From the NCBI RefSeq assembly GCF_023074835.1, contig NZ_JALLGW010000001.1, positions 1,488,001 to 1,552,000 on the forward strand: a stretch of 64,000 bases of DNA. Reading direction: 5' to 3'. This stretch comes from Halomarina salina. GTDB lineage: Archaea; Halobacteriota; Halobacteria; Halobacteriales; Haloarculaceae. A program made the translations under genes and the position numbers. Shown here one piece after another: positions 8,597 to 32,642 of this stretch. How positions within the stretch are numbered: the first letter of the stretch is position 1; each line of letters begins with the position of its first letter. The notes beneath the pieces are model-generated. The model made no database searches. It saw only the letters and a list, made by a program, of their open reading frames with translations, and was not told the origin of the DNA.

Positions 8597-9544
8597 TCAA
8601 TCGTTCGCCTCCTCGACTGTCTCCAGCACGCGCTCCACGGTACCGCCCATGAGCACGTGACTCGTCGCGCCCAGCCCGAGTGCCTCGCTGACGTGGTGAG
8701 CGACCGCCTCGACCCGGTCGGGGTCGGCGCTCGTCTCGATACCCATCGCCGTGAGCATCTGGACGAGGTCCTCGGTCGGCGTGTTGCCGACTCCCGCCAT
8801 CCCCTCTGGAAGCACGACCCCTCCACCGAGGCCACAGACCGAACTGTCGAACCGGTCGACCCCGGCCTGCATCGCAGCGAGCGTGTTGGCGAGGCTCATC
8901 CCGTTCGTGTCGTGGAGGTGCAGTCCGTACGTCGTGTCCGGCCAGCGCTCCATGATCGTCGAGAACAGGTCGGTGACCTGAACGGGGTTGGCCAGTCCCA
9001 TCGTGGTCGCCAGCGTCACCTCGTCGACGCCTGCCTCGACCGCCCGTTCGACGACCCGTTCGGTCGCTGCGGGGTCGATGCGGCCCTCGTACGGGCAGTA
9101 GAAACTCGTGCCGATGCCGGCCTCGACGGTCACGTCGGTCCCGTCGGCGAGGTCGACGATAGCGTCTACCTCCTCCAGGATGTCGTCGACCGTCATGTTC
9201 TGGTTCTTCCGACTGTAGCTCTCGCTGACCGTGATGAGCGCGTTCACCTTGTCGACGTCCGCGTCGAGCGCCCGTTCCATGCCGACCGCGTTGGGCACGA
9301 GCGCCCGGTAGGTCGTGTCTGGGTTCCGGTCGATACGTGCGGCCACCTCGTCGGCGTCCCGGAGCGTCGGGACGGCGTCGGGGTGTGTGAACGAGGTTAT
9401 CTCGATCTCGTCGACGCCGGTCGAGGAGAGGCGGTCGATGATGTCGACTTTCTCGTCGGTCGGGACGAACTCGTCGAGCCGCTGGAACCCGTCGCGCGGG
9501 AGCATCTCGACGAGCGTGACGTCCTCCGGGAGGTCGAGCGCCAC
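8597..9544 (-). CDS. HMG-CoA-lyase-like DRE-TIM enzyme lacking the canonical lyase cysteine
   Basis: 315-residue TIM-barrel protein of the hydroxymethylglutaryl-CoA lyase group. It has EMLPRDGFQ near residue 13 (the metal/catalytic Arg-Asp loop), EITSFTHPDAVP near 48, and a metal-binding HLHDTNG. In true HMG-CoA lyases the glycine-rich loop reads GLGGCPYA with an essential Cys; here the sequence is GLGGGVVLPEG, with Gly at about residue 242. The following GNTPTEDLVQML is kept. Substrate or mechanism therefore probably differs; a related 3-hydroxyacyl-CoA such as citramalyl-CoA would fit the neighbours. It starts with GTG immediately after the CoA-transferase stop. Confidence 0.85.
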   Translation of the reverse strand: MALDLPEDVTLVEMLPRDGFQRLDEFVPTDEKVDIIDRLSSTGVDEIEITSFTHPDAVPTLRDADEVAARIDRNPDTTYRALVPNAVGMERALDADVDKVNALITVSESYSRKNQNMTVDDILEEVDAIVDLADGTDVTVEAGIGTSFYCPYEGRIDPAATERVVERAVEAGVDEVTLATTMGLANPVQVTDLFSTIMERWPDTTYGLHLHDTNGMSLANTLAAMQAGVDRFDSSVCGLGGGVVLPEGMAGVGNTPTEDLVQMLTAMGIETSADPDRVEAVAHHVSEALGLGATSHVLMGGTVERVLETVEEAND

Positions 9545-10911: not shown

Positions 10912-12303
10912 TCAGATGGGGCGGTCGATGTGCGTTCCGTGGCCGGCGTCGCCGACGATCTCACCGTGCTCGTAGGCCACCTGGCCCTTCACGACGGTGT
11001 GGGTCGGCCACCCCGTCACCTCCCGGCCGTCGTACGGGGAGTAATCGGCGGCACTCTTCAGTAGTTCGGGCGTCACCTCCCTTTTCTCGTCGAGGTCGAC
11101 GACGGCGAGGTCGGCGTCGCTGCCCACCCTGACGGTGCCTTTCTTCGGATAGAGGTTGAACGCCTTCGCCGTGTTGGTCGACGTCACCTCGACGGCACGC
11201 TCCAGCGAGATGCGGCCCTCGTTGACGCCCTCCGAGAGTATCAGTGGGAGCATCGTCGCCGTACTCGGGAATCCGGGGAGGCTGTCGGGGACGTCCTGGC
11301 CGATCTTCTCCTCGGCCATGTTACAGCAGTGGTCCGTACCGATGCAGGAGATGGTCCCGTCGGCGACCCGCTCCCAGAGCGTCTCGCGGTCTTCCGCGGA
11401 GCGGACCGGTGGGTTGACGTTGTGACGTTCGTCGGCTTCCTCGCTCGTGAGCGTCAGGTAATGCGTGCAGGTCTCGCCGGTGAGCCCCCAGCCGGCGTCC
11501 TTGAGCGTCGCGAGTTCGTCCGCGGTCTGGCCGGAGGAGACGTGGACGGCGTAGAAGTTCTCGCCGTAGTCGTGCTGGCGGGCCAGCGCCGCCCCGGAGA
11601 TCATGCTCTGGGCCTCGGCGTACCCCGGGAACTGCTCGACGAGGGCGTCGTAGTCGCGGTACTCCTGGTCGTCATCCAGCTCCGTCTCGAGGTACGGGTT
11701 GTCGCCGAGCGAGTTCGTTATCTCGACGTTCTCGGAGTGGTAGCCCAGCGTCGTCGGGACGTCCTGGTCGGCGAGCGCCTGGATGAACGCGTCACCGAAG
11801 TCGTCGCGCATCTCGCAGTCGACGCCGAACTTCTCGGCGGCGCTGTACTTGTAGTTCATGTACCACTTGAACGTGGTGATGCCCAGCTCGTCGACGATGT
11901 AGGGGATCTCCTCGACGTGCTCGAACGACAGCAGTCCCAGCGAGAAGAAGTAGTCGTGGTAGTAGTTGGGTTCGGCCTGCTCGAAGTACTCACCCATTAT
12001 CTCCTCGTACGACCCCGGTCGCCGGAAGTAATTCCCGATGGTGGTCACGCCACCGACGAGGTCCGACTGGGATTCGCTCTCGGCGTCCTCCGCCAGCGTG
12101 CGGTAGATGCCGTGGTGCGTGTGTGGGTCGATGGCTCCTGGGAGGACGTGCTTGCCGTCCGCGTCGATCTCGCGGTCGCCCTCGACGCTCCCCGGACTGG
12201 CGATTGCGCTGATGAGACCGTCCGTCGCCGCGACGTCCGCCTCGAACGTCCCGTGTTCCGGCGTGACGACGGTACCGTTCCTGACGACGAGGTCGTGGGT
12301 CAT
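10912..12303 (-). CDS. dihydropyrimidinase/hydantoinase-family cyclic amidohydrolase
   Basis: 463-residue amidohydrolase that hydrolyses cyclic amides such as hydantoins, dihydropyrimidines or imides. The metal-site pattern is complete: DPHTHH (two His), Lys in TFKWYM (expected to be carboxylated), His in GYHSENVEI, His in VHVSSGQT and Asp in GTDHC. Composite-barrel features at both ends (LVVRNGTVVTP; GSDADLAVVDL) support cytosolic hydantoinase-type architecture. Its start overlaps the stop of the isochorismatase-family gene by four bases, so ring opening and hydrolysis of the opened product are probably coupled. A gap of 137 bases separates it from the CoA-transferase downstream. Preferred substrate unknown. 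Confidence 0.9.
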   Translation of the reverse strand: MTHDLVVRNGTVVTPEHGTFEADVAATDGLISAIASPGSVEGDREIDADGKHVLPGAIDPHTHHGIYRTLAEDAESESQSDLVGGVTTIGNYFRRPGSYEEIMGEYFEQAEPNYYHDYFFSLGLLSFEHVEEIPYIVDELGITTFKWYMNYKYSAAEKFGVDCEMRDDFGDAFIQALADQDVPTTLGYHSENVEITNSLGDNPYLETELDDDQEYRDYDALVEQFPGYAEAQSMISGAALARQHDYGENFYAVHVSSGQTADELATLKDAGWGLTGETCTHYLTLTSEEADERHNVNPPVRSAEDRETLWERVADGTISCIGTDHCCNMAEEKIGQDVPDSLPGFPSTATMLPLILSEGVNEGRISLERAVEVTSTNTAKAFNLYPKKGTVRVGSDADLAVVDLDEKREVTPELLKSAADYSPYDGREVTGWPTHTVVKGQVAYEHGEIVGDAGHGTHIDRPI

Positions 12304-12968
12304 GGTTCCTCCAGTGTCTCGACGTACTCGCGGACCTCCTCGGTCTCCAGGACCTCGGCGTACTTCATCCACATGTCGAGGAGGCCGATCTTGTGCGACG
12401 CCTCGATACGGTCGAAGAGACACTCCTGGGGTAGAACGACGCCGTACCCGTGCTGGGTGGCGTCGACGACCGTCGCCCGGACGCACCCGCTGGTCGAGTT
12501 CCCGACGACGATGAGCGAGTCGTGCTCCCCCTCGGTCAACAGGTCGTCCAGCTCGGTGTCGAAGAAGACGCTCGCGTACGTCTTGTCGATGACCGTCTCG
12601 CCCTCCTCGGGCGCGACGGGGTCGACGATGTCGAGGTCGGGGTGGTCCGGGTCGTCGTAACTCGACGGCACGACCCGACTGTACACGACCCGGAGTCCCT
12701 CGTCGCGCGCGAAGTCGAGGAACGGGTCGATGTGGTCGATGGCGTCCCAGGCGATCTCCCCCATCGCCGTCCGGTACTCCTCGACTGCATCGAGGATCGG
12801 GACGTCGTCGCCGACGATGAGTCGCTGCATGTCGATGACCAGTACCAGCGGGTTCTCACCGAGCCCTCGTGACTCCCACGAGGACGCTCCCTCCTTGTCG
12901 TACCCGGCCGCCGTGATGACGGCCTCGTCCCGCTCGGAGAGCAGGTCCTCCCAGATTCGCTCTGTCAT
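12300..12968 (-). CDS. isochorismatase-family amidohydrolase (N-carbamoylsarcosine amidase-like)
   Basis: 222-residue cysteine hydrolase of the isochorismatase superfamily. The catalytic triad is visible as Asp in VIDMQR, Lys in DKTYAS and Cys in NSTSGC, followed by VRATVVDATQHGY. N-carbamoylsarcosine amidase and RutB-type ureidoacrylate hydrolases share this pattern. With the coupled hydantoinase gene, it most likely removes a carbamoyl or amide group from the ring-opened product, releasing CO2 and ammonia or an acid. ATG at 12968 is chosen because it lies about 30-40 bases below an AT-rich TATA-like element. A second homologue is at 60722-61372. Confidence 0.88.
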   Translation of the reverse strand: MTERIWEDLLSERDEAVITAAGYDKEGASSWESRGLGENPLVLVIDMQRLIVGDDVPILDAVEEYRTAMGEIAWDAIDHIDPFLDFARDEGLRVVYSRVVPSSYDDPDHPDLDIVDPVAPEEGETVIDKTYASVFFDTELDDLLTEGEHDSLIVVGNSTSGCVRATVVDATQHGYGVVLPQECLFDRIEASHKIGLLDMWMKYAEVLETEEVREYVETLEEP

Positions 12969-13088: not shown

Positions 13089-14120
13089 CTATCCGGACCG
13101 CTCCGGCGCGAAGGTCTCCAGGGTACGCTCGACCCACTCGTCGTCGGTCCCGGACGGCGTCCGGACGATAGGCAGGTCGACGCCCAGTGCACGAAGCTCT
13201 TCCAGTTCGTCGCGCGCGGTCGTCGGCGTTCCGACGAGGCCGACGACATCGAGAAACGACTCGGAGAGTTGGCCCGCGGCGGCTTCGGTCGTCTCTGCCT
13301 CGCGGGCGGCCTCGACCTCGTCGCCGAACCCGGCCTCCTCGGCGACGCGGGCGTAGTATCCGGGGATGTCGCGGAGGTAGTACGCCACGTGGTTCGCGGC
13401 GGCCTCGTAGGCGACGGTCGGGTCGTCGTGGACCGCCGTGAGGACGTACATGGCCACGTCGATATCAGCCGGGTCGCGGTCGGCGCGGCTCGCCCCCTCG
13501 GCGAGCCACCCCGTCGCCTCCTCGAACCGCGACGGTGGGTAGAGGTTCGGCAGCCACCCGTCGGCCACCTCGCCCGTCAGTCTGACGTTGCCCGGCCCGA
13601 GCGCCCCGTTGTAGATGGGAATCGACGACCGCTCGGGTTCGAACGCCTCCCAGAAGCTGGTCCGGTCCGGGCTGTAGAACTCTCCCTCGAACCCCTCGGC
13701 CTCGCCTCGGAGGTATCGCCGGACGAGTTCGACGTACTCGTGGAGTCGTGCGAGCGGTCGGTCGAACTCGACGCCGTGGAACGTCTCGACGACTCCCGGG
13801 TGAGCGACGCCGAGGCCGAGGATGGCACGGCCACCCGAATGCTCGTCGAGCGTCGCCGCCGCGGCCGCCAGCGCGGCCGGCGTCCGGGAGAACACGTTGA
13901 CGATACCCGTCGCCAGACCGATCTCGTCCGTGTGGACCGCCCACCGCTCCAGTTTACCGAACGCTGTCTTCCCCTGCCCCTCGGCCGCCCAGACGGAGTC
14001 GTACCCCAACTCCTCCGCGCGAACGACCTGCTCCGGGTCGTCGCGGAGCGCGAACAACACCCCCGTTCGCTTCCGGTCGCTCGTCACGCCAGTCCCCGGA
14101 TGCTCACTCGGTACGCCCAT
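13089..14120 (-). CDS. LLM-class (luciferase-like, probably F420-dependent) oxidoreductase
   Basis: Up to 343 residues with the luciferase-like TIM-barrel pattern: GYDSVWAAEGQGKTAFGKLE, then IGLATGIVNVFSRTPAALA, and SGGRAILGLGVAHPGVVE, which is typical of F420-binding archaeal members (methylene-tetrahydromethanopterin-reductase-like). A GTG about 12 codons in could be the true start. RutA, the uracil ring-opening monooxygenase, belongs to the same superfamily and works with an isochorismatase-family RutB, so association with the adjacent amidohydrolase is suggestive, but the residues visible here favour an F420 enzyme. Cofactor and substrate remain unassigned. Confidence 0.87.
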   Translation of the reverse strand: MGVPSEHPGTGVTSDRKRTGVLFALRDDPEQVVRAEELGYDSVWAAEGQGKTAFGKLERWAVHTDEIGLATGIVNVFSRTPAALAAAAATLDEHSGGRAILGLGVAHPGVVETFHGVEFDRPLARLHEYVELVRRYLRGEAEGFEGEFYSPDRTSFWEAFEPERSSIPIYNGALGPGNVRLTGEVADGWLPNLYPPSRFEEATGWLAEGASRADRDPADIDVAMYVLTAVHDDPTVAYEAAANHVAYYLRDIPGYYARVAEEAGFGDEVEAAREAETTEAAAGQLSESFLDVVGLVGTPTTARDELEELRALGVDLPIVRTPSGTDDEWVERTLETFAPERSG

Positions 14121-14290: not shown

Positions 14291-15064
14291 TCACCCCGTC
14301 GAGTGAACGCCGCCGTCGACGACCAGCGACTCCCCCGTGACGTAGCTCGCCAGGTCGCTCGCGAGGTACAGCGCCGCGTCGGCGACATCCTCTGGCCGAC
14401 CGAACGCGTCGAGCGGAACGCGTTCTCTGAAGGCCTCCCCCGCTGCCGTGTCGATGACCTCGCTGTCCTCACGAGTCATCGCCGTCTCGATGACGCCGGG
14501 GTGGATGACGTTCGCCCGGACGCCACTCGGGCCGAGTCCGTCGGCCAGTGCGTACGTCATGAGCCGAATCGCTCCCTTCGACGCCGAGTAGGCGACGTAG
14601 TCACCGACCCCGTACAGCCCCGCCGTCGACGAGAGGTTCACGATGCTTCCCTGCCCCTGCTCGACCAGCCGTCGCGCGGCGGCCTGCGACCCGAAGTACG
14701 TCCCCTTCACGTTCGTCTCGAACACGCGGTCGAACTCCGCCTCCTCGGCCGTCAGGAACGACTCGGCGTGGAAGACGCCGGCGTTGTTCACCATGACGTC
14801 TATCTCGCCGAACGCGTCGGCCGCTGCGACCGCCCGTTCGAGCGCCGCCGGGTCACGCACGTCGCACTCGACGAACGTCGCCCGGCGGTCGGTCTCCTCG
14901 CGGATGTACTCGTGTGTGGGGCGACCCGTCTCTCGTGGCTGCTCGCGCAGGTCTGCGACGACGACGTCTGCGCCCTGTTCGGCGAACCGTGTGGCGATAG
15001 CCCGACCGATTCCACTCGTGGCACCGGTGACGACCGCGGTCTGGCCGTCGAGTAGGTGGTCCAT
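14291..15064 (-). CDS. SDR family NAD(P)-dependent oxidoreductase
   Basis: 257-residue classical SDR with TGATSGIGRAIA near residue 14, NNAGVFH near 92, catalytic Ser in NLSSTAG, Tyr/Lys in YSASKGAIRL and the C-terminal TGESLVVDGGVHSTG. It is transcribed divergently from the LivGF-type ABC genes. A perfect inverted repeat (15135-15156) lies between the two starts and could control both. It faces the LLM oxidoreductase gene in the same direction with 170 bases between. Probable role is oxidation or reduction of a transported substrate or early intermediate; substrate not predictable. Confidence 0.92.
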   Translation of the reverse strand: MDHLLDGQTAVVTGATSGIGRAIATRFAEQGADVVVADLREQPRETGRPTHEYIREETDRRATFVECDVRDPAALERAVAAADAFGEIDVMVNNAGVFHAESFLTAEEAEFDRVFETNVKGTYFGSQAAARRLVEQGQGSIVNLSSTAGLYGVGDYVAYSASKGAIRLMTYALADGLGPSGVRANVIHPGVIETAMTREDSEVIDTAAGEAFRERVPLDAFGRPEDVADAALYLASDLASYVTGESLVVDGGVHSTG

Positions 15065-15134
15065 GCGACCACGTCGCAGTGTGATGGGTTGACCGTTTCG
15101 CCCCGCGACCGTCCGGAGTGCCGTGTGCGAGGGC

Positions 15135-15156: not shown

Positions 15157-15174
15157 CTCACATCTGCCGTGTCA

Positions 15175-16733: not shown

Positions 16734-18080
16734 CTATCCTAACTCTCCGTCACCGGATCGAAGCAGTTCGAAGAGCGTCGTCGAATCCGCAGGACCCTCT
16801 CGGGTCGCGGCCCACAGGTCGTTGGCGGAGTCGGTGCCCAGCACGGGACCGACGAGGTCGGTGAACTTCTCGCGGACGACGCTCTCCTCGTACGGCCGTT
16901 CGGCACCGCCGGCGGCGTGAACGACCTTCTCCGAACGCGTCGAGCCATCGGTCGTCGTCACGGTGACTCGTGCGGAGCGCTGGTCGGGAAGCCGGTCACG
17001 CATCTCGTCGGTGGCGACGACCTCGACGCGGTCGGCGAGTGCCAGCGTCGGTTCGTCGATGGCGTCGGCGACGAACGCCGGCTTTCCCGAGGTGCCGTGG
17101 ACGAGGCGCGTCGCGACGGCGAACGGCACCGAGAACTTCGCCTGGAGCGCACTGCTGGGTCGGGTCTCGGTGAGCGCGGCCGCCGCGGGGTAGGTCTCGA
17201 CGCGGACGCCATCGACGGTAGCCGGATCGAGTCCGCTCTCCAGCAGCGCGTCGACCGCGTCGATAGTCGGGTGGGTGTACCGACAGGCGGCGTGTCGTTT
17301 GAAGTACCCCTGCGTCACCTCCCACCGCTCACCGAGGTCGGCCCCGAGCGCGTCGCGGTCGACCGTCCCCTCGACCGCGAGGTCGAGGTGTCTCGCGATG
17401 CCGTCGTCGACCCCCGAGAACCCGGCAGCCGCGAGGTCGGCGGCCAGGAGCCCCGAGAGGTTCGCTCCCCCGGCGAACGCCTGCCGAACGGTCGCCCCTT
17501 CCGTGGCTGCGGCCATCAACGTGTGCTGGGCGTCCTTCGCGGCGATTCGAGCCGCCTGCTCGACGGTCGCGGCGTCGTACCCGCGATTCACCGCGACGCC
17601 GACCGCCGCGCCGACCGGGCCCCAGACGCCGTGCGGGTGGTAGCCCTCCGCCAGTGGCTGACAGGCTCGACCGGCCCGGGCGGCCGCCTCGTACCCGGCA
17701 ACGAACGAGACGAGGAGGTCGTCACCGGACCCGTCGTCGACCTCCCAGTCGGCGAGCAGCGCCGGTAGGACGTGAATCGCGGGGTGGCCGGCGGCGTACT
17801 TGTGCCCCTCGTCCAGTTCGAGCACCGTCCCCGACGCGCCGCCAGCGAACGCGGCGAGATAGCGCGACGTCGTCGCGTCGTGTCCGACGACCGTCGCCGA
17901 CCCCGGTGTCCGCTCGCAGGCACCGTCGACGAACCCCCGAACGTCGGGGTCGGTCGAGCCGCCGACCATCGCTGCGACGGTGTCCGCAACCACCAGTCGG
18001 GCGTGCGAACGGACTGGTTCCAGAACGTCGTCGAACGAGAGAGTGGCCGCGAAGGTCGCCAGTTCCGTCTCGGCGCTCAT
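16734..18080 (-). CDS. MmgE/PrpD family protein (first copy)
   Basis: 448-residue member of the MmgE/PrpD family, which includes 2-methylcitrate dehydratase, cis-aconitate decarboxylase and iminodisuccinate epimerase. The N-terminal helical domain has VVADTVAAMVGGS and LDEGHKYAAGHPAIHVLPALL; the second half has YFKRHAACRYTHPTIDAVDAL and KFSVPFAVATRLVHG, all typical of the fold. It is translationally coupled (four-base overlap) to the upstream flavoprotein gene. The same two-gene pair occurs in mirror orientation at 23701-26519. The expected reaction is dehydration, decarboxylation or isomerisation of a small polycarboxylate produced or oxidised by the flavoprotein; which one is undetermined. 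Confidence 0.9.
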   Translation of the reverse strand: MSAETELATFAATLSFDDVLEPVRSHARLVVADTVAAMVGGSTDPDVRGFVDGACERTPGSATVVGHDATTSRYLAAFAGGASGTVLELDEGHKYAAGHPAIHVLPALLADWEVDDGSGDDLLVSFVAGYEAAARAGRACQPLAEGYHPHGVWGPVGAAVGVAVNRGYDAATVEQAARIAAKDAQHTLMAAATEGATVRQAFAGGANLSGLLAADLAAAGFSGVDDGIARHLDLAVEGTVDRDALGADLGERWEVTQGYFKRHAACRYTHPTIDAVDALLESGLDPATVDGVRVETYPAAAALTETRPSSALQAKFSVPFAVATRLVHGTSGKPAFVADAIDEPTLALADRVEVVATDEMRDRLPDQRSARVTVTTTDGSTRSEKVVHAAGGAERPYEESVVREKFTDLVGPVLGTDSANDLWAATREGPADSTTLFELLRSGDGELG

Positions 18081-19576
18081 GCGTCGCCCTCTGTCGTGGT
18101 CGAATCGGCGTCACCCGCGACCGACTCGGCCACGAACTCGCCGACCAGGTGTCCCTCGGTGAGCGCCGTCATGAGGTCCATCCCTGGGATGTAGACGTTG
18201 GGGTCACCGCCTTCGAGGCTCTCGGCGGCGTTGCCGCCGGCGTAGAGGTTCTCGACGACCGATCCGTCGTCGCGAACGACTCGCATCCGCTCGTCGACGA
18301 CGATACCCTGTCTCGCCTTGACGTACATCGGCTGTATCTTCGCCGTGTAGAACGGCGGCGTGAGTTCGTGAGGGTAGGCACGCCCGTACGGGACGTCGGC
18401 CGCGTCGTCGGTCGCCCGGTTGACGGTCGCGATGGTGGAGCCGAGCCGGTCGCCGTCGAGACCGTAGCGGGCTGCGACCTCCGCGACGGTGTCGGCCACG
18501 TCGAAGCAGTCCTCGTCCAGCAGGAAGGAGAACTGGTGGTTCGTGAGCGGTTCGTCGAGGAACAGGTCGACGATGGACCCGTCGAGGACGATGTAGCCCG
18601 TCGCGTCGGGCTGGTCGAGGAGGTGCATGTCCATGACCCGGTAGGGGACGTTCCCGCAGTCCATGAACCGCTCGGCGTCGTCGTTCACGATGATAGCGCC
18701 GGCCTTGACGAGTTCGTTCGGGAGGTAGACGCCTTCGGGGACGGTGAACGGACCGTGCATGTCGTACAGCGGTTCGTCGAGTCGCAGCCCGAGTTCCTCC
18801 GCGATTCGAAGCGCGTCGCCGGTGTTCTCACGGGTGCCCCAGTAGTCGAGCCCGGCGATCTCCGGGACGCGCTCGGCGATGAGTTCCGGGTTGGCCGCGA
18901 ACCCGTCGCAGGCCAGGAGGACGTGGTCGGCGCGAATCATGTGGGTGGTCTGGCGGCGCGGGACGGCGGTCGGGTTCTCCTTGGAGGCGACGCCGATGAC
19001 CGCGCCAGTCGTCTCGTCGCGGAGCAGCTGGTCACAGGGGAACTCGGTCCGGACGTCGACGCCGCGTTCCACTGCCGCCTCGTGGAGGGCGTCGGTGACG
19101 GGTTTTCCGGCCCGCGGGATGACGCCGTCGTCGCGGACGGGGTAGTGCGTCCGGTGGACCCGGTGGCCGGCCATCTCGAACCGGCCGGTGTGGAGGGTGA
19201 GGTCGGCTCCGATCTCCTCCCGTAGCCAGTCGAGCGTCCGACCGGAGTTCCCGGCGACCGTCGTCACGAGCGTCCGATCGAGCGTGTACTGGTCGGCGGA
19301 CGACTCCGTCTGCTGGGCGAGGAGGTCGTCGTAGAACGCCTCGGCCGAGTCGTCGATGCCGCGTTCTCGCTGGAGCGACGAGTCGACACCGCAGATCTGA
19401 CCGGTCGCCACTCTGGCTTTGCCGCCGATGCGGTCGGCCTTCTCGAGGAGTACCACGTCGGCGTGGACGGCCGCTGTCGCCGCTGCCGCGAGGCCACACC
19501 CGCCCCCACCGACGACGGCGAACTCCGTCGCCGCTTCCCAGTCGACCAGTTCCGGGTCGACGTCTCGAACGAACAT
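18077..19576 (-). CDS. fumarate reductase/KsdD-type FAD-dependent oxidoreductase (first copy)
   Basis: 499-residue flavoprotein. The N-terminal FAD-binding GGGGCGLAAA motif begins near residue 23, followed by LLEKADRIGGKARVATGQ; a C-terminal VENLYAGGNAAE closes the FAD site. This is the soluble single-polypeptide type used for desaturation of diacids or steroids (for example TcuA tricarballylate dehydrogenase). No heme or signal peptide. ATG at 19576 lies about 26 bases after a CTTATG element, fitting a leaderless transcript; upstream extension would be proline-rich antisense sequence of the binding-protein linker. Coupled to the MmgE/PrpD gene and divergent from the binding-protein gene. Confidence 0.9.
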   Translation of the reverse strand: MFVRDVDPELVDWEAATEFAVVGGGGCGLAAAATAAVHADVVLLEKADRIGGKARVATGQICGVDSSLQRERGIDDSAEAFYDDLLAQQTESSADQYTLDRTLVTTVAGNSGRTLDWLREEIGADLTLHTGRFEMAGHRVHRTHYPVRDDGVIPRAGKPVTDALHEAAVERGVDVRTEFPCDQLLRDETTGAVIGVASKENPTAVPRRQTTHMIRADHVLLACDGFAANPELIAERVPEIAGLDYWGTRENTGDALRIAEELGLRLDEPLYDMHGPFTVPEGVYLPNELVKAGAIIVNDDAERFMDCGNVPYRVMDMHLLDQPDATGYIVLDGSIVDLFLDEPLTNHQFSFLLDEDCFDVADTVAEVAARYGLDGDRLGSTIATVNRATDDAADVPYGRAYPHELTPPFYTAKIQPMYVKARQGIVVDERMRVVRDDGSVVENLYAGGNAAESLEGGDPNVYIPGMDLMTALTEGHLVGEFVAESVAGDADSTTTEGDA

Positions 19577-19670
19577 ACGTGCACCTTGTGACACGCTCGC
19601 ATAAGCGTTAGTGGAACCGAAGCTCCGCAGCCATCCCAAACCAAGATTTATGTGGTCTCCGCAGAGAGGT
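19577..19670. promoter_or_regulatory. divergent promoter region between flavoprotein and binding-protein genes
   Basis: Minus strand: CTTATG at 19600-19605 lies about 26 bases from the flavoprotein ATG. Plus strand: TTTATG at 19647-19652 lies about 22 bases from the binding-protein ATG at 19671. Both fit haloarchaeal TATA boxes of leaderless genes. The minus box is preceded by AACG, giving AACGCTTATG, close to AACGCTTAAG over the livG-like promoter at 15141-15149. Confidence 0.5.
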
Positions 19671-21032
19671 ATGGGACAGAAGTCCATGTCAAGGGATAGC
19701 AAATATAGCAGTACCAGCAGGCGACAGTACATCGCAGCCCTCGGCGCCGCGGGGCTCGCCGGGTTAGCAGGGTGTGCGAGCGGAGAGGACGCCACTACCA
19801 CGGAAGGGGGGAACGGTGGCGGTGGCGGTGGTGGCGGCGGTGGCGGCAACGGCACTGGCACTACCACCGGCACGACCGGCGGGAGCGCCGAGGAGGTCGT
19901 CATCGGTGCCAACGAACCGCTCTCGGGGAGTCTGTCGCGAGCCGGGTCCGCGATGGCGCGCGGAGCCGAACTCGCGACGATTCACGTCAATCAGGGCGGC
20001 GTCGTGCCCGGGTTCGACGAGGGGGGAATCCCGAGTCTCGACGGGGCGACGCTCGCGCTCGAACGAGGCGACAACGAGGGGACACAGGAGCTGGGCGGTG
20101 AGGTCGAACAGCAGCTCATCGACGCCGGAGCGGTCGCCATCACGGGCTGTTACTCCTCGCCGGTGACGCTGTCGGCGGCCCAGATCGCCGAACGCGAGCA
20201 GGTCCCGCACGTCATCGACGTCTCGGTCGCCAACCGTATCCTCCAGGACCGACAGCTCGAATACGGCTTCCGCGTCTCCCCGAACGCAGACCGTTTCGCC
20301 CAGAACTACGCGACGTTCATGCCGGAGATGGCACGGGCGAACGGGGCGACGATGGACACGGCCGGGCTGGTCTACCTCGACAACGCGTTCGGGCAGTCCA
20401 TCGCCGAGACGCTCCAGGCCCAGCTTCCGGAGAACGACGTGGAGGTCCTGTTCGCCGACGCGTACGCGTTCGACCAGGGCAACCTCTCCACCGAGGCGAC
20501 GAAGGCGAAGCAGAACGACCCCGACGCCCTCGTCTTCACGGGCTACGGCAACGGTGGCATCAAGATGATGAACGGCCTGCAGAACGTCGACTACCGCCCG
20601 TCGCTCCTGACCGGCTGTTCGACCCCGACGTTCACGTCCGAGCAGGTCATCTCGGAGATCGGTTCGTTCGTCGACGGCGGCTTCGGCAACAACTACGACT
20701 TCGATCACAACCTCGACTGGACGGAGACGATCTTCACCGACTACGAGTCGGAGTTCGGTGACCCGCTCAACGTGATCCACACCTCGATGAGCTACACGGC
20801 GGTCATCGTGATCGCCAACGCCATCGAACAGGCCGGGTCGACCGACCCGACGGCGATTCGGGACGCGCTCAGCCAGGTCACCGTCGAACAGCACCCGGCT
20901 GCCATGGGACCGGTCACCTTCCGCGACGACGGCGAGAACGAGAACAGTCTGGCACCCATGCTCCAGGTTCAGGAGGGGGAGGCAGACGTCGTCTACCCCG
21001 AAGAGTACGCACAGTCGAGTCCGCAGTTCTGA
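19671..21032 (+). CDS. ABC transporter substrate-binding lipoprotein (LivK/amide-binding type)
   Basis: 453-residue secreted binding protein. A Tat signal (STSRRQYIAALG) is followed by a lipobox ending LAGLAGC, so it should be folded before export and lipid-anchored. A Gly/Thr linker follows, then a periplasmic-binding-protein type I domain: VVIGANEPLSGSL, ARGAELATIHVN, VYLDNAFGQSIAETL, DALVFTGYGNGG. ATG at 19671 fits TATA spacing; an ATG at 19686 would also leave the signal intact. It heads the plus-strand livKHM-like operon and is divergent from the flavoprotein gene. The ligand is an amino acid, amide or organic acid; not resolvable from sequence. Confidence 0.92.
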   Translation: MGQKSMSRDSKYSSTSRRQYIAALGAAGLAGLAGCASGEDATTTEGGNGGGGGGGGGGGNGTGTTTGTTGGSAEEVVIGANEPLSGSLSRAGSAMARGAELATIHVNQGGVVPGFDEGGIPSLDGATLALERGDNEGTQELGGEVEQQLIDAGAVAITGCYSSPVTLSAAQIAEREQVPHVIDVSVANRILQDRQLEYGFRVSPNADRFAQNYATFMPEMARANGATMDTAGLVYLDNAFGQSIAETLQAQLPENDVEVLFADAYAFDQGNLSTEATKAKQNDPDALVFTGYGNGGIKMMNGLQNVDYRPSLLTGCSTPTFTSEQVISEIGSFVDGGFGNNYDFDHNLDWTETIFTDYESEFGDPLNVIHTSMSYTAVIVIANAIEQAGSTDPTAIRDALSQVTVEQHPAAMGPVTFRDDGENENSLAPMLQVQEGEADVVYPEEYAQSSPQF

Positions 21033-21086
21033 GCCGCTGTCGACCGTTGAGCAACTATTAAATAGCCCTTCCCCCATCGTAGAGCT

Positions 21087-22025
21087 ATGTTACGCATTGT
21101 CTTACAGAGCGACTTCCTTGGACCGATCCAGGACTTTCTGAGCGACGTGGCTGCGCTCGACCCGCTGATACTCCAGCTGGCGGTCTTCGGTCTCCTGCTG
21201 GGGGGTATCTACGCGCTGGCCGCACTGGGTCTCACGATGATCTTCGGCGTGATGGATATCGTCAACTTCGCACACGGGTCGTTTCTCGTTCTGGGGATGT
21301 TCTCCTCGTGGTGGGTCGCGACGACGTTCGGTATCTCTCCGTTCATCACCATCGGGGTCAGTGCGCTCTTCTTGCTCCTGGTCGGGGTGGTCGCGAGCGT
21401 ACTGACCATCGAACCGATAATCGAGGAACCCGCGGAGAACCAGTTCATCGTCACGCTGGGTATCTCGTTCATCATCGTCGCACTGCTCGAGATGCAGTTC
21501 GGCGCCCAGTCGCGGTCACTGGGGCTCCAGTTGGGCTCCTACCAGTTTCTCGGTGCGCTCATCCCGAAGGCCCAGCTGTACGCGCTCATCATCGCGGTCG
21601 GCGCGATCGCCGCGTGCTGGGGGTTCCTCTACTACACGAAACTCGGGCGGGCCCTCCGAGCGACGGCCGACAATCGCGATGCCGCCTGGTACATGGGCGT
21701 CGACGTCCCCCGTGTCGACCACCTCACGTTCGGTCTCGGTGCTGCGCTCGCAGGACTCGGCGGCGGCGCTATCGTGCTGTTCTCGCCGTTCGACCCGTTC
21801 GCGGGTGAGAGCTACCTCGTGACGGCGTTCGTCATCGTCATCCTCGGCGGTCTCGGGTCGTTTCCCGGCGCGCTCGTCGGGGGTATCATCATCGGCTTCA
21901 TCGAGGTGTTCGGCAGCTATTACCTCCCGGGGACGGTGTACCAGGTCGTGATATTCGGACTGTTCGTCGTGTTGCTCTACCTCAAACCGACCGGGCTGTT
22001 CGGTGAGGAGGAGGTCGAACGATGA
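21087..22025 (+). CDS. branched-chain-type ABC transporter permease (LivH family)
   Basis: 312-residue inner-membrane permease with about eight hydrophobic segments. LivH hallmarks are GGIYALAALGLTMIFGVMD followed by NFAHGSFLVLGMF near the N-terminus, GRALRATADNRDAAWYMGV in the cytoplasmic loop and a C-terminal LKPTGLFGEEEVER. An AT-rich TATTAAATA element about 31 bases before the ATG may give an extra promoter, although co-transcription with the binding protein 55 bases upstream is likely. The stop overlaps the LivM-like start by four bases. Confidence 0.93.
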   Translation: MLRIVLQSDFLGPIQDFLSDVAALDPLILQLAVFGLLLGGIYALAALGLTMIFGVMDIVNFAHGSFLVLGMFSSWWVATTFGISPFITIGVSALFLLLVGVVASVLTIEPIIEEPAENQFIVTLGISFIIVALLEMQFGAQSRSLGLQLGSYQFLGALIPKAQLYALIIAVGAIAACWGFLYYTKLGRALRATADNRDAAWYMGVDVPRVDHLTFGLGAALAGLGGGAIVLFSPFDPFAGESYLVTAFVIVILGGLGSFPGALVGGIIIGFIEVFGSYYLPGTVYQVVIFGLFVVLLYLKPTGLFGEEEVER

Positions 22026-23134
22026 GTTCCGAGCAGTCGTCGCTCGGGAGTATCCGGACGGTCTACGACCGGGTCGACGGCTGGCGCTACGGCTCGGTCC
22101 TGAAGCTACTCGTCGTGTTCGGTATCCTCGCGGCGTTGCCGCCGCTGCTCGACGTCTACGTGTTCGGCATCGGCCTGGGGTCGTTCATCAGCACCAACAT
22201 CCTCATCGTGACCCTGGTGTACGCGACGGCCGGCCAGGCGTGGAACATCATGTCGGGCTACACCGGCTACTTCTCGTTCGGACACGCGGCGTTCTTCGGC
22301 GTGGGGGCGTACGCGACGAGCAAGCTGAGTGTCACGTTCGGCATCAGCCCCTGGGTCGGCCTCCTCGTCGGGGGAGTCGTCGCCGCGCTGGTCGGCCTCC
22401 TCGTCGGGTATCTGAACTTCCGCTACGGGTTGCGGGGTCACTACTTCGCGCTGGCGACGTTCGCCATCGCGTTGCTCCTGCAGGTCGTCGTCCGAAACAT
22501 GGGTGAACTCGGCGGGGCCGTCGGTATCTACCGGCCGTTCCCGAGCGACTACGGTGCGGAGTTCGGTCTCATCGCGATGCAGTTCCGGGATGCCACGTCC
22601 TACTACTACGTCATCTTCGGATTCCTGGTGGTGGTGACCGTCGCCGCCTGGCTGATCAAGCGCTCGCAGTACGGGCTCTACCTGTTCGCGATTCGCGAGA
22701 ACGAGGAGGCGGCAGCGAGTCTCGGCATCTCACCGTTCCGCTACAAGATGTTCGCCATCGGTACCTCTGCGTTCTTCACCGCGTGGGCTGGCGCGTTCTG
22801 GAGTATGTACGTCGAGATCATCCGCCCGTCGACCGTCTTCGGCATCAATCGGAACGTCCAGATCCTCCTCCCGTCGGTCGTCGGTGGCATCGGGAGCGTC
22901 GGCGGGACGATTCTCGGCGCGTTCGTCGTCTTCCCACTCGGCGAGGCGCTGCGTCTCTCCTTCCCGGACACGCCAGGCCTCGACACGGTGGTCTACGGCG
23001 GTGCACTGGTGCTCATCGCACTGTTACTGCCGAACGGCCTCGTCTCCCTCGGCGGGGTGTTCGGCCGGGACAGCTCCGACGACGAGGACGGGGACAGCGC
23101 GACGAACGACGAACGGGCTCCATCCGACGACTGA
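22022..23134 (+). CDS. branched-chain-type ABC transporter permease (LivM family)
   Basis: 370-residue permease with a hydrophilic N-terminus of about 30 residues and roughly nine to ten membrane segments. LivM features are GQAWNIMSGYTGYFSFGHAAFFGVGAY in two adjacent segments, the loop SQYGLYLFAIRENEEAAASLGI, and the C-terminal LLPNGLVSLGGVFG. An acidic, Ser/Asp-rich tail of about 25 residues follows, typical of haloarchaea. It completes the membrane part of the importer whose ATPases lie at 15175-16679. Confidence 0.93.
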   Translation: MSSEQSSLGSIRTVYDRVDGWRYGSVLKLLVVFGILAALPPLLDVYVFGIGLGSFISTNILIVTLVYATAGQAWNIMSGYTGYFSFGHAAFFGVGAYATSKLSVTFGISPWVGLLVGGVVAALVGLLVGYLNFRYGLRGHYFALATFAIALLLQVVVRNMGELGGAVGIYRPFPSDYGAEFGLIAMQFRDATSYYYVIFGFLVVVTVAAWLIKRSQYGLYLFAIRENEEAAASLGISPFRYKMFAIGTSAFFTAWAGAFWSMYVEIIRPSTVFGINRNVQILLPSVVGGIGSVGGTILGAFVVFPLGEALRLSFPDTPGLDTVVYGGALVLIALLLPNGLVSLGGVFGRDSSDDEDGDSATNDERAPSDD

Positions 23135-23218
23135 GCGAGTCGGTGTCGTGTCGCGGCCATCTGCCTCTTCGTGGTACCGCCGTCCGACGACCACTACGAG
23201 ACCGACGAGCCGAGCCGG

Positions 23219-23593
23219 CTACTCTACGACGCCGTCGACGACGAGGTCGTTGTGGACGACCATCCGCTCGACCCGACCGTCGGTCACCTCGTAGACGTCG
23301 ACGAAGCGAACGCCGTCGAACCGTTCGCCCTTCGAGTCGACGCCGTAGAGGGTCCCGAGGCAGACGACGTCCTTTCCCGAGACGACCCAGCGGTCGAACT
23401 CCTTGTCGGCCCACTCGTACCGCGACGAGAACCAGTCGAGCATCTCGTCGGCGGCGTCCGGCCCCTCGAAGCGAGCGGCGGGAAGCGTGATGACCGCCGT
23501 CGGGGCGAACAGTTCGCGGATGGTCCCGCGGCGCTGTTCGTCGGCCATCCGCTCGAACAGTTCCTCGACGACCGCGCGTGGTGTCGACGCCAT
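23219..23593 (-). CDS. SnoaL/NTF2-like family small protein
   Basis: 124-residue protein with an alpha+beta cone-fold pattern: VVEELFERMADEQRRGTIRELFAPTAVI at the start, AADEMLDWFSSRYEW in the middle and VRFVDVYEVTDGRVERMVVHNDLV at the end. This is typical of SnoaL-like/NTF2-like proteins, a fold used for isomerases, cyclases, dehydratases or ligand binding. ATG at 23593 is chosen; an upstream GTG/ATG would add only four residues. It is convergent with the livM-like gene and divergent from the flavoprotein gene at 23701. Specific activity not predictable. Confidence 0.8.
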   Translation of the reverse strand: MASTPRAVVEELFERMADEQRRGTIRELFAPTAVITLPAARFEGPDAADEMLDWFSSRYEWADKEFDRWVVSGKDVVCLGTLYGVDSKGERFDGVRFVDVYEVTDGRVERMVVHNDLVVDGVVE

Positions 23594-23700
23594 ACTCGTT
23601 CTCACTGTGGAGGTGGCTAAACTGTTGCTCCAGTCCGACCCGCTGGAGGCGAGTTCCCCGGTGAGGTAGCTTTACGGCGCCCCCGGCCGACGTGTGCTGT

Positions 23701-25134
23701 ATGGCATCACGTAACGACAGCCCCCCGACTATCGAGGAAGCCGACGGTGAAGTCGTCACGGCCGACGAGGTCGACTGGGCCGTAGAGACCGACGTCCTCG
23801 TCGGTGGGGGCGGTGGCACCGGTCTCGTCGCCGGACTCGCCGCTGCGGAGAACGAGGCGTTGACCGTGACTATCCTGGAGAAGTCCGGGTCGTTCGGCGG
23901 GAACACGTCGCTATCGACGGGGATGATTCCCGCAGCCGGGACGAAGCTCCAGCAGGCGGCCGGCATCGAGGAAGCCCCCGAGGACATGGCCCGCGACATC
24001 CTCGAGAAGAACGGGTACGCCGCGGACGAGGAGCGGGTGCACCACCTCTGTCGGGAGAGCGCCCCTCTGATTCACTGGCTGGTCGACGACTGGGGTATCG
24101 ACCTCCACCTCGTGAACGACTTCAAGTACCCCAAACACTCGGAATTCCGGATGCACGCCCCTCCGGGGCGGAACGGCGACAACCTCGTCTCTCAACTCGT
24201 CGACCGGGCGGAGGCGACCGAAAACGTCGAACTGCTCACCGACGCGCCGCTGCGGAAACTGGTCACCGACGACGACGCCGTGGTCGGCGCCGTGACGGGG
24301 AAACGGCACACGGAGGCGGTCGCCGCTCGTGCGGTCGTCCTCGCGACCGACGGGTTCGCCGGGAACCGGCGAATGGTCGCGAATCACTGCGAGGAGATCG
24401 CCGACGCTCTGTACTTCGGGTCGGACGGGAACACCGGTGACGGCATCCGCTGGGGTGCACAGCTGGGCGGGGAGCTGTCGTGTATGGACGCCTACCAGGC
24501 GCACGCTACCGTCGCTCACCAGACGGGGTCGCTGTCGACGTACGCGGTCGTGATGAACGGCGGCATCCTCGTCAACGAGGCGGGACGGCGGTTCGGCGAC
24601 GAGACGAAGGGCTACTCCGCCTTCGCCGTCGACGTCCTCGAACAGCCCGAGGGGCTGGGGTACGAGCTCTTCGACGCCGACATCTTCGACCGGCTCGAAG
24701 GCGAGTTCGACGACTTCGACGAGGCGGCCGCGCTGGGCGCGTACGCTTCGGCCGACGACGTCGCGACGCTAGCCGAGGAACTGGGGTGTGACCCGGCGGA
24801 GGCGACGGCGGCCGTCGAGCGGTACAACCAGGCCGTCGAAGCGGACGAACCGGACGAGGTGGGGCGGACCGACGGTCGGTCGACGCTGGAGGCGCCGTTC
24901 TACGGCGCGAAGATCACCGGTGCGCTGTTCCACACGCAGGGCGGACTGTCGGTCGACGAGCACGCGCGCGTCGTCCGGACCGACGGGTCCGTCGTCGAGA
25001 ACCTCTACGCGGGCGGTGGGGCGGCCGCAGGTATCAGCGGTCACGGCCCCGGCGGGTACCTCAGCGGGAACGGACTGACGACCGCCCTCGGCTACGGCCG
25101 ACTCGCGGGCGAGCACGTCGCGGAGACGCTATGA
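23701..25134 (+). CDS. fumarate reductase/KsdD-type FAD-dependent oxidoreductase (second copy)
   Basis: 477-residue soluble flavoprotein of the same superfamily as 18077-19576. FAD motif GGGGGTGLVAGLAAA begins near residue 37 and continues to LEKSGSFGGNTSLSTGM. RAVVLATDGFAGN and VENLYAGGGAAAGISGHG close the FAD site. The GNTSLSTG and GPGGYLSGNG loops resemble 3-ketosteroid dehydrogenase and urocanate/fumarate reductase-type enzymes that work on activated double bonds. ATG at 23701 lies about 28 bases after a TTTACG element, fitting a leaderless start. Coupled by a four-base overlap to the second MmgE/PrpD gene. Substrate unknown. Confidence 0.9.
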   Translation: MASRNDSPPTIEEADGEVVTADEVDWAVETDVLVGGGGGTGLVAGLAAAENEALTVTILEKSGSFGGNTSLSTGMIPAAGTKLQQAAGIEEAPEDMARDILEKNGYAADEERVHHLCRESAPLIHWLVDDWGIDLHLVNDFKYPKHSEFRMHAPPGRNGDNLVSQLVDRAEATENVELLTDAPLRKLVTDDDAVVGAVTGKRHTEAVAARAVVLATDGFAGNRRMVANHCEEIADALYFGSDGNTGDGIRWGAQLGGELSCMDAYQAHATVAHQTGSLSTYAVVMNGGILVNEAGRRFGDETKGYSAFAVDVLEQPEGLGYELFDADIFDRLEGEFDDFDEAAALGAYASADDVATLAEELGCDPAEATAAVERYNQAVEADEPDEVGRTDGRSTLEAPFYGAKITGALFHTQGGLSVDEHARVVRTDGSVVENLYAGGGAAAGISGHGPGGYLSGNGLTTALGYGRLAGEHVAETL

Positions 25135-26519
25135 CGCGCGAGCCACCGGAGCCCGTCCGGGAGTGGGAGGCCGCAGTGTTCGAGTTCCTCGATGCCCCGG
25201 TGCCCGAGGAGGTGCTCGAACACGGCGCGAAGACGGTCGCCGACGTCCTCGCCGCGACGGTCGCGGGGAGCGCGGCCCCGCCGTACCGTGAGACCTGGGC
25301 GGCGATGGACCTCCCGGCAGGACCCGCGACCGTCCTCGGGACCGACCGGACGACCGCTCCGATGCAGGCGGCGGCTCTCAACGGTACCGCGGCCATCGTC
25401 CAGGAAGTCGAAGAAGGGCACAACACCGGTGGACACGTCGGCTCGGGTATCGTCGTCGGCGGTCTCGCGGTGGCGGAGGCGACCGACGCCAGCGGTGAGC
25501 AGTTCGTGGAGGCGTGTGTCAGAGCCTACGAGGTCTGTGCCCGTCTGGAGGAGGCGCTGTTTCGCATGAAGGGGCGCATCAACGACGCTGTTCCCTGGTT
25601 AGTCCGCAATCCGCACGCGACGTGGACCGTCGTGGGGCCGGCGCTCGCAGGTGTCCTCGCGACCGGTGCGGACACCGCGACGGTCCGGGAGACGTTCCGC
25701 CTCGCGGCGAACCGCGCCGTCGTATCGATGGACGACCCGTACGCGAGCGGGCCGCCGTCGCGGAACCTCACCGCCGGAGCGAGCGCGAGCGTAGGCGTAC
25801 TGATGGCTCAGCAAGCGCGGGCGGGGATGACGGGCTCCGGTGGGGTCATCGAGGCCGTCTACGACCCGTTCGACGACGACGAGGCCGACCCTGGGTGGCT
25901 CACCGACCGATTCGCCGACCTCGGGGAGCGCTGGGAGTCGACGTACAACTACTTCAAGCCCTATCCGTCCTGTCGGTACACCCACCCGCCGCTGGACGCA
26001 CTGCGCGACGTCGACGGCGTCTCACAGTTCGACCCCGACGACATCGACCGAATCGTCGTCGAGACGTACGCCAACGCGGCAGAGATGAGGCGACAGGACC
26101 CTGATACCCTCACTGGGGCCAAGTTCTCTATCCCCTACGTCCTCGCTCGGTATCTCCAGAGCGGCGAGGTAACGTTGGAGCACTTCGACCCCGAGAGCAT
26201 CGCCGACCCTGCGGTCAGGTCGCTCGCCGAGCGCGTCGAGGTGCGAGTCGACAGCGCGTTCGAGGCGGCGTTCTCCGAGGACTGGGGTGCGCGGGTGACC
26301 GTCGAACTGACCGACGGGTCTCGCCACGCTGCCGAGCGGACGTACCCCCGAGGCGACTACCGCGACCCAATCGACGACGAGGCGTTCGACGAACGGCTCC
26401 GGACGCTGCTCGCCTGGGGTCTCCCCGACGCTGCGGTTGCCGACGCACACGACGCGCTCAGCACACTCCGTCGTTCAGCGGTCAGGGACACGGCTACAGC
26501 ACTCGCTACCGACAGTTGA
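25131..26519 (+). CDS. MmgE/PrpD family protein (second copy)
   Basis: 462-residue MmgE/PrpD-family protein. The diagnostic blocks parallel the first copy: VADVLAATVAGS, VEEGHNTGGHVGSGIVVGGLAVA, YFKPYPSCRYTHPPLDALRDV and KFSIPYVLARYL. The catalytic-region histidine stretch differs (EEGHNTGGH here, DEGHKYAAGH in copy one), so the two copies need not share a substrate. It is co-translated with the flavoprotein and followed after 68 bases by an IclR-type regulator in the same direction. Dehydratase, decarboxylase or epimerase action on a small di- or tricarboxylate is expected from the family. Confidence 0.9.
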   Translation: MTREPPEPVREWEAAVFEFLDAPVPEEVLEHGAKTVADVLAATVAGSAAPPYRETWAAMDLPAGPATVLGTDRTTAPMQAAALNGTAAIVQEVEEGHNTGGHVGSGIVVGGLAVAEATDASGEQFVEACVRAYEVCARLEEALFRMKGRINDAVPWLVRNPHATWTVVGPALAGVLATGADTATVRETFRLAANRAVVSMDDPYASGPPSRNLTAGASASVGVLMAQQARAGMTGSGGVIEAVYDPFDDDEADPGWLTDRFADLGERWESTYNYFKPYPSCRYTHPPLDALRDVDGVSQFDPDDIDRIVVETYANAAEMRRQDPDTLTGAKFSIPYVLARYLQSGEVTLEHFDPESIADPAVRSLAERVEVRVDSAFEAAFSEDWGARVTVELTDGSRHAAERTYPRGDYRDPIDDEAFDERLRTLLAWGLPDAAVADAHDALSTLRRSAVRDTATALATDS

Positions 26520-26542: not shown

Positions 26543-26587
26543 ACAAGCGGTACTCCTTTGTCGTCAGTCACCCAATCAGAGACAACC

Positions 26588-27364
26588 ATGTCCAGACCCC
26601 CCGAATCCGGGCCCGCCACGGTGAGCGCGACGGAGACGTCGTTCGCAATCATCGAACAGCTGTCCGAAGTCAACGGCGCTGGGGTCTCCGAGCTGGCGAC
26701 GGCACTGGGCCGCTCGAAGAGCAACGTGCACAAACACCTCGTGACGCTCCGGGAGCTCGGGTACGTCACCAAGGACGAGGACGACACCTACTACGTCGGA
26801 CTCCGGTTCCTCGGACTGGGCGACCGGGCACGCGCTCGGTCGTCGTTCTATCAGGTGGCGAAGGACGAGACGGATTCGCTCATCGACGAAGTCGGCGAAC
26901 GCGGGCAGGTGATGGTCGAGGAGGACGGCCGCGGTATCTACATCTACCAGGCGACGACCGACCAGGCGGTACAGACCGACTCACACATCGGAACGGTCGT
27001 TCGGTTACACGCGACAGCCGTGGGGAAGTCGTACCTCGCGTTTCTCGACGAAGCGAAGCGTGAGGAACTTCTCGACTCGCTCGACCTCTCCGCAGTCACT
27101 GACGGTACGATCACCGACCGCGAGACGCTGGAAGCGGAACTGGCGACGATTCGCGACCGTGGAGTCGCGTTCAACAACGAGGAGCGAACGGTCGGAATGC
27201 GAGCCGTGGGGGCTCCGATACTCACCGACCAGGGCGGTGTCATCGGGGCGATCAGCGTCTCGGGCCCGACGACGCGTATCAACGGTGACTGGTATCGGGA
27301 GGAGATCCCACAACTCGTCCGGCGGTCCGCTCGGGTCATCGGGCTGAAAGCGACGTACTCGTAG
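26588..27364 (+). CDS. IclR family transcriptional regulator
   Basis: 258-residue regulator. The N-terminal winged helix (about residues 15-75) includes SFAIIEQLSEVNGAGVSELA and GRSKSNVHKHLVTLRELGYV. The C-terminal effector domain includes GIYIYQATTDQAV, RLHATAVGKSYLAFL and VGAPILTDQGGVIGAISVSGP, all typical IclR elements. IclR proteins sense small organic acids or aromatic intermediates and control adjacent catabolic operons. Position directly after the flavoprotein/MmgE-PrpD pair and near the Liv-type transporter suggests it regulates them. ATG at 26588 is the best start; an upstream in-frame start would run into the inverted-repeat region. Confidence 0.93.
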   Translation: MSRPPESGPATVSATETSFAIIEQLSEVNGAGVSELATALGRSKSNVHKHLVTLRELGYVTKDEDDTYYVGLRFLGLGDRARARSSFYQVAKDETDSLIDEVGERGQVMVEEDGRGIYIYQATTDQAVQTDSHIGTVVRLHATAVGKSYLAFLDEAKREELLDSLDLSAVTDGTITDRETLEAELATIRDRGVAFNNEERTVGMRAVGAPILTDQGGVIGAISVSGPTTRINGDWYREEIPQLVRRSARVIGLKATYS

Positions 27365-32616: not shown

Positions 32617-32642
32617 AGCGAGTGCAGGGGACTCTCTCAGGT

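Follow-up and report, generated by a model that had tools for sequence, protein, structure and literature searches.

Two mirrored flavoprotein-PrpD gene pairs in Halomarina salina belong to a conserved haloarchaeal gene island that may break down an N-heterocycle

In the haloarchaeon Halomarina salina, two genes for fumarate-reductase-type flavoproteins, each coupled to a gene of the MmgE/PrpD family, lie in opposite orientation around the genes of a Liv-type transporter. They were analysed within a stretch of 64,000 nucleotides, here called the window (positions 1,488,001 to 1,552,000 of contig NZ_JALLGW010000001.1, assembly GCF_023074835.1; contig 3.1 Mb, genome 4.46 Mb), whose own numbering is used below. 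The two pairs, Flav_A-PrpD_A and Flav_B-PrpD_B, are a local shuffle of one larger catabolic island (6704-27364), and they are its two least typical junctions. The island appears to be horizontally mobile and comprises LeuCD, a homologue of HMG-CoA lyase, a class III CoA-transferase, a cyclic amidohydrolase, an isochorismatase-type amidase, LLM and NTF2 proteins, the Liv transporter, Flav_B, PrpD_A, PrpD_B and an IclR regulator. It probably serves the uptake, ring opening and breakdown of an N-heterocycle, for which a cyclic imide or a related cyclic amide or ureide is the best candidate. Substrate, reactions and reaction order are our inference, whereas the presence of the genes, their conservation and the exchange of parts between islands are documented in the following paragraphs.

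A sequence-only reading of this locus had described two flavoprotein-PrpD pairs with four-base overlaps, placed symmetrically around LivKHM. The reading frames of both pairs were confirmed, and both junctions consist of ATGA with the flavoprotein upstream of the PrpD. The symmetry held in part: the pairs do flank LivKHM, but the mirror is approximate only, as an NTF2/SnoaL gene on the minus strand separates LivM from Flav_B, and LivG/LivF (15118-16679) lie beyond PrpD_A, outside pair A. Gene order and overlaps are identical in a genome of the same genus (G173), and the layout is therefore not an assembly accident. Both flavoproteins contain the Pfam domain FAD_binding_2, and both PrpD proteins contain MmgE_PrpD_N plus MmgE_PrpD_C. 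The pairwise identities (34% for PrpD_A and PrpD_B, 33% for Flav_A and Flav_B) agree with the earlier view that the pairs are no recent duplication, which is ruled out by these identities together with the tree.

Close homologues of PrpD_B (50-66%) and PrpD_A (46-57%) were found in exactly the same 10 genomes of an order-level sample of 146, belonging to several families, and the next matches stayed below 40%. If the genomes were independent, which they are not, the probability of obtaining the same ten by chance would be about 1e-15. The islands of these ten genomes hold LeuD, LeuC, the lyase homologue, CoA-transferase, amidohydrolase, amidase, LLM, NTF2, Flav_B, LivKHMGF and IclR, and plasmids of Haloferax, Halorubrum and Natrinema carry annotated copies of the same genes, one example from Haloferax being pHG2 of H. 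gibbonsii. Gene order is shuffled between lineages. PrpD_A is followed in tandem by PrpD_B, with no flavoprotein between them, in six of the ten genomes; Flav_B is located elsewhere within most haloarchaeal islands, and the genome G232 has Flav_B-PrpD_A-PrpD_B in tandem. Natrinema zhouii carries the genes on two separate plasmids, one with Flav_B-amidase-amidohydrolase-CoA-transferase-lyase-LeuCD and the other with Liv-PrpD_A-LLM and other hydrolases. A plasmid of Halomarina sp. BND7 (L066) represents a more complex island variant, with three amidohydrolase/isochorismatase pairs, AtuA, DUF4387, a CoA ester lyase and LeuCD with an isocitrate lyase (ICL) around the same LLM and NTF2 genes.

Comparable islands are present in bacteria. 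A plasmid search returned PrpD_A homologues of up to 43% in alphaproteobacteria. In Roseomonas and Neorhizobium, Liv genes are followed by PrpD, a gene of the ICL/phosphoenolpyruvate (PEP)-mutase family, HyuB, HyuA, a cysteine hydrolase and a flavoprotein, with LeuCD upstream; Azospirillum has Liv-PrpD-PEP mutase-HyuB-HyuA-flavoprotein-LeuCD, and Methylobacterium nodulans isochorismatase-Liv-PrpD-flavoprotein-PrpD-amidohydrolase, with four-base overlaps among the last four genes. The flavoproteins of the bacterial islands share 36-43% identity with Flav_B. When 84,980 species genomes were scanned by pattern, more than 580 loci with Flav_B relatives emerged, and the best 80 were kept with flanks of up to 10 kb, the content of which was scored with home-made profiles. 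A ring-amide hydrolase was found in 56 of the 80 loci, a lyase of the ICL or HMG-CoA-lyase type in 48, the isochorismatase-type amidase in 46, LeuCD in 29, PrpD in 32, LivHM in 27 and NTF2 in 23, and each of the 29 LeuCD loci also had a lyase. Twenty random 20-kb haloarchaeal slices, used as a control, contained one amidohydrolase and no amidase, PrpD, LeuCD or lyase. Within the census the amidohydrolase and HyuAB almost never occur together (Fisher p 7e-5), and the CoA-transferase and the ICL-type lyase seldom do (p 3e-4), both values being indicative only, since the loci are related and the control is archaeal. Because these parts replace each other, equal roles are suggested for the amidohydrolase and HyuAB, and likewise for the CoA-transferase and the ICL-type lyase. 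An apparent mutual exclusion of LeuCD and PrpD in bacterial loci (Fisher 2e-5) was rejected as a flank artefact: LeuCD lies beside Liv-PrpD-ICL-HyuAB islands just past the sampled flank, as in L120 and L138.

The census also bears on the proposal that the flavoprotein-PrpD pairing is a repeated functional unit. The pairs are old and distinct, and their association recurs, in the PrpD-bearing census loci as well as in Methylobacterium and G232. What did not stand is the idea of two equivalent desaturase-PrpD modules. A same-strand PrpD directly adjoins the flavoprotein in 5 of the 80 loci. Outside its own genome, Flav_A finds its best matches, in the order-level sample, in the Flav_B orthologues (about 35%), and within the family it has two orthologues only, in G173 (83%, same mirror layout) and in G208 (72%, no adjoining PrpD). 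All three proteins lack the active-site motifs of Flav_B, LFHTQGGL, GYS and GYLSGNGL and have motifs of their own (VKARQGI or VKGRQGI; YIPGMDL or YIAGMDL). In the tree Flav_A forms a long branch that meets the outgroup, a placement that was disregarded. Given its restriction to three genomes of the family and its differing motifs, we regard Flav_A as an addition specific to its lineage, with an active site unlike that of Flav_B, rather than as a second copy of the same module.

A model built on the original suggestion, in which two self-contained modules desaturate a saturated polycarboxylate such as tricarballylate or methylsuccinate and then hydrate or decarboxylate the product, with Liv as the acid importer, is very unlikely as an account of the locus. 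Both flavoproteins are closest, among NCBIfam models, to enzymes of the flavocytochrome c/TcuA type, a PrpD_A-like gene is clustered with TcuA/TcuB in Variovorax, and PrpD adjoins the flavoprotein in Methylobacterium and a few other loci. However, Flav_A and Flav_B score 191 and 230.2 bits against the subfamily cut-off of 285.45 of TIGR01813 (flavocytochrome c/fumarate reductase), and 117.2 and 175.1 bits against the equivalog cut-off of 369 of NF006130 (TcuA). Tricarballylate utilisation shares with the island a flavoprotein of the same superfamily, but not the Flav_B motifs LFHTQGGL and GYLSGNGL, and no TcuB was noted in the island. Moreover, PrpD_A and PrpD_B mostly stand together with no flavoprotein between them, and such modules leave the ring hydrolase and the amidase unexplained. 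The desaturation would be at most one step of a pathway in which a conserved ring-opening hydrolase, amidase, LeuCD, CoA-transferase and lyase had been overlooked.

Both PrpD proteins exceed the Pfam cut-off of 32.1 for PF03972 and PF19305 (PrpD_A, 123.5 and 109.7 bits; PrpD_B, 85.2 and 126.4 bits). Against the 2-methylcitrate dehydratase equivalog TIGR02330, PrpD_B reaches 22.2 of 458 bits, and PrpD_A gives no match. In a tree of 73 PrpD sequences, a single clade of 46 members (support 100/96) unites PrpD_A and PrpD_B with most PrpDs from the bacterial islands; IDS epimerase and Bacillus IRG1 fall outside it, as do the remaining PrpDs of this genome. With midpoint rooting, PrpD_B branches first within the clade and PrpD_A is nested among bacterial sequences; hence the two had separated before haloarchaeal PrpD_A diverged from its relatives in bacteria. 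Every orthologue of either protein has an arginine in the column occupied by lysine in Bacillus IRG1 and IDS epimerase, the position of the catalytic Lys207 (human numbering) of cis-aconitate decarboxylase (CAD)/IRG1; by this residue neither protein groups with the cis-aconitate decarboxylases. The three histidine positions compared are all kept in PrpD_A, while in PrpD_B and all its orthologues the middle one, at the position of CAD His159, is lost and an insertion is found there. Over its full length, the structure model of PrpD_B (pLDDT 74.6) can be superposed on IDS epimerase, cis-aconitate decarboxylase and 2-methylcitrate dehydratase (Z 27-30), which indicates an intact family fold in the model and implies no substrate; the model of PrpD_A (pLDDT 47.7) was too poor to use.

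The near-constant co-occurrence of PrpD_A and PrpD_B suggests either consecutive steps or a mixed complex. A single complex with PrpD_B as a partner of altered site, which would concern the PrpD step only and is compatible with the breakdown of an N-heterocycle, is conceivable but rather doubtful. The strict co-occurrence, the frequent tandem order and the changed histidine position would fit it, whereas PrpD_B has invariant motifs of its own and a full-length PrpD fold, the PrpD_A on the Natrinema zhouii plasmid has no adjoining PrpD_B, and most PrpD-bearing bacterial loci have a single PrpD.

By motif (DPHTHHG, TFKWYMNYK, GYHSEN, AVHVSSG, GTDH) the amidohydrolase has all six ligands of a binuclear metal centre (HxH, Lys, two His, Asp), and it reaches 259.9 of the 393.25 bits of the D-hydantoinase/dihydropyrimidinase equivalog TIGR02033. 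Dihydropyrimidinases act on imide rings as well: the enzyme from Pseudomonas opens phthalimide with one quarter of its efficiency on dihydrouracil (PMC4437985). The amidase (PF00857, 104 bits) has a conserved Asp-Lys-Cys triad, and among the solved structures closest to it are N-carbamoylsarcosine amidohydrolase and 3uao/3ot4, the latter being the maleamate amidase NicF. The HMG-CoA-lyase homologue passes NF004283 (283.8 versus 246 bits); when aligned to human HMG-CoA lyase it keeps the Arg/Asp and the His pair, and Cys266 is replaced, with GLGGG for GLGGC in all orthologues.

These enzymes could be read as a route for hydantoins or ureides, in which the amidohydrolase would open a 5-substituted hydantoin or a dihydropyrimidine to an N-carbamoyl acid, the isochorismatase-type protein would act as carbamoylase and the remaining genes would degrade the side chain. 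The nearest relatives of the amidohydrolase are hydantoinases and dihydropyrimidinases, the amidase also resembles biuret hydrolase, genes of the Asp/Glu-racemase family, which includes hydantoin racemases, occur in some islands, and amidohydrolase relatives of 58-60% are found in ergothioneine-like haloarchaeal clusters. Such a route is nevertheless unlikely, as its end product, an amino acid, does not call for LeuCD and a C-C lyase, which go together in all 29 LeuCD loci of the census. In the ergothioneine-like clusters the amidohydrolase genes (L056, 12001-13392; L057, 11998-13389) directly follow a HutU-like gene near an aromatic ammonia-lyase gene, and an ergothioneine-type pathway in haloarchaea is possible. 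A citrazinate/isonicotinate pathway, which would not need a lyase, was rejected, no relevant report being found in the open-access literature, and the literature search yielded nothing on such a cluster for homarine.

Our favoured reading is the degradation of a cyclic imide or a related cyclic amide or ureide. The Liv-type ABC transporter would import the N-heterocycle, the amidohydrolase (HyuA/HyuB in many bacteria) would open the ring to a half-amide, and the isochorismatase-family amidase would take off the nitrogen to give a di- or tricarboxylate. Flav_B, in haloarchaea with LLM and NTF2, may adjust the oxidation state of the ring or acid by C-C desaturation or reduction. PrpD_A/PrpD_B and LeuCD would then turn a hydroxy-acid into an isomer that can be cleaved, through dehydration and rehydration of the kind carried out by PrpD and aconitase in the methylcitrate cycle. 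Cleavage to central metabolites would follow CoA transfer and be catalysed by the HMG-CoA-lyase homologue in haloarchaea; in bacteria and some haloarchaea an enzyme of the ICL/PEP-mutase family may act directly. A ring-opening pathway that ends in a cleaved branched hydroxy-acid is thus predicted. Several points weigh against this interpretation. Hydantoins or ureides could equally well be substrates of the hydrolase-amidase couple, the lyase homologue lacks the catalytic cysteine and may catalyse a different reaction, and in profile searches no island enzyme passed an equivalog cut-off that names a substrate. Additionally, the census loci are not independent (several are from Nocardia, for example), the control slices were archaeal only, and 6 of the 80 loci had none of the sought parts beyond a transporter ATPase or SDR. 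A narrower proposal is an undescribed pathway, common to archaea and bacteria, for maleimide-type imides from chlorophyll or haem oxidation (hematinic acid, alkyl maleimides): after imide opening and deamidation, a branched maleate or an aconitate homologue would be isomerised by the split PrpD pair and LeuCD and then cleaved. We regard this as highly improbable.

Each enzyme family of the island is already known, and parts of the predicted pathway resemble established systems. In the methylcitrate cycle, methylcitrate is dehydrated, rehydrated and cleaved by PrpD, an aconitase-family hydratase and a lyase of the ICL/PEP-mutase family (PrpB). The same three families are clustered in the bacterial islands and in Natrinema and Halomarina, but the island PrpDs are a separate subfamily, far under the PrpD equivalog cut-off, and the island adds a ring-opening hydrolase, an amidase and a flavoprotein, usually with the CoA-transferase and HMG-CoA-lyase homologue in haloarchaea. 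Bacterial cyclic-imide metabolism employs an imidase and then a half-amidase, a sequence matched by the cyclic amidohydrolase and amidase; the island differs in that its amidase belongs to the isochorismatase family and in having a predicted lower pathway for a branched unsaturated acid. The last steps of anaerobic nicotinate catabolism are those of the dimethylmaleate hydratase DmdAB and the lyase Dml, and this pathway likewise combines a LeuCD-type hydratase, an ICL/PEP-mutase family lyase and an upstream ring-opening amidohydrolase, but PrpD and a Flav_B-type flavoprotein are not part of that route. The maleamate pathway of nicotinate shares the similarity of the island amidase to NicF, whereas the other genes differ and no NicC/NicX/NicD/NicE set was noted in the island. 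No description of the gene combination was found in the open-access literature searched, which is weak evidence for novelty.

Further gene clusters were noted in and beyond the window. An operon-like run on the minus strand (54558-63970) encodes a BPD permease, an NMT1/THI5-type binding protein, an IPMS-like HMGL enzyme, a class III CoA-transferase, an isochorismatase-family protein, HyuB and a C-terminal part of HyuA, and appears to form another cluster for ring opening and cleavage. The region 32622-52443, of C1/betaine type, holds a GCV_T protein, an MTHFR-like protein, two dimethylglycine-oxidase-like fusions, two BCCT transporters and a formate-tetrahydrofolate ligase. On a plasmid of the betaproteobacterium Variovorax sp. 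PBL-E5 (L059, 2812-10784), F420 biosynthesis genes adjoin an LLM enzyme, an amidohydrolase and a carbon-nitrogen hydrolase.

Table 1. Genes of the island, with window coordinates and the grounds for their assignment
Gene product	Position	Strand	Grounds and remarks
LeuD-type small subunit, aconitase/isopropylmalate-isomerase family hydratase	6704..7216	-	PF00694, TIGR02087 above cut-off; island orthologues 68-76%
LeuC-type large subunit	7213..8538	-	ATG at 8538 (mechanical open reading frame start 8835); PF00330, TIGR01343 above cut-off; island orthologues 70-80%
HMG-CoA-lyase family C-C lyase	8597..9544	-	GTG start; PF00682, NF004283 above cut-off
Class III CoA-transferase	9545..10774	-	PF02515; orthologues 68-77%
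Cyclic amidohydrolase, dihydropyrimidinase/hydantoinase type	10912..12303	-	PF01979; hydantoinases top the PDB list
Isochorismatase-family amidase	12300..12968	-	PF00857; Asp-Lys-Cys triad
LLM oxidoreductase	13089..14120	-	PF00296; nearest solved relatives F420-dependent (Mer)
SDR dehydrogenase, accessory	14291..15064	-	present in some islands only
LivG and LivF type ATPases	15118-15915, 15912-16679	+	ABC_tran
PrpD_A, MmgE/PrpD family	16734..18080	-	Pfam, orthologues, motifs
Flav_A, FrdA-like flavoprotein, lineage-restricted	18077..19576	-	ATG at 19576; Pfam, orthologues, motifs
LivK-type binding lipoprotein	19671..21032	+	ATG at 19671 or 19686; Peripla_BP_6
LivH and LivM type permeases	21087-22025, 22022-23134	+	BPD_transp_2
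NTF2/SnoaL-like small protein	23219..23593	-	PF12680; adjoins LLM in islands (conserved)
Flav_B, FrdA-like flavoprotein, core island member	23701..25134	+	Pfam; neighbourhood census
PrpD_B, MmgE/PrpD family	25131..26519	+	Pfam, motifs; modelled fold matches family full length
IclR-type regulator, likely of the island	26582..27364	+	PF01614; adjoins PrpD_B in most islands

The Flav_B family, with its more than 580 loci annotated only as 'FAD-dependent oxidoreductase', would gain a pathway context from this assignment, and so would a distinct PrpD subfamily. Because the amidohydrolase can be exchanged for HyuAB, and the CoA-transferase plus lyase for an ICL-type lyase, a small set of compounds could serve to test the chemistry, and the whole island is found on several plasmids of Haloferax, a genetically tractable genus.

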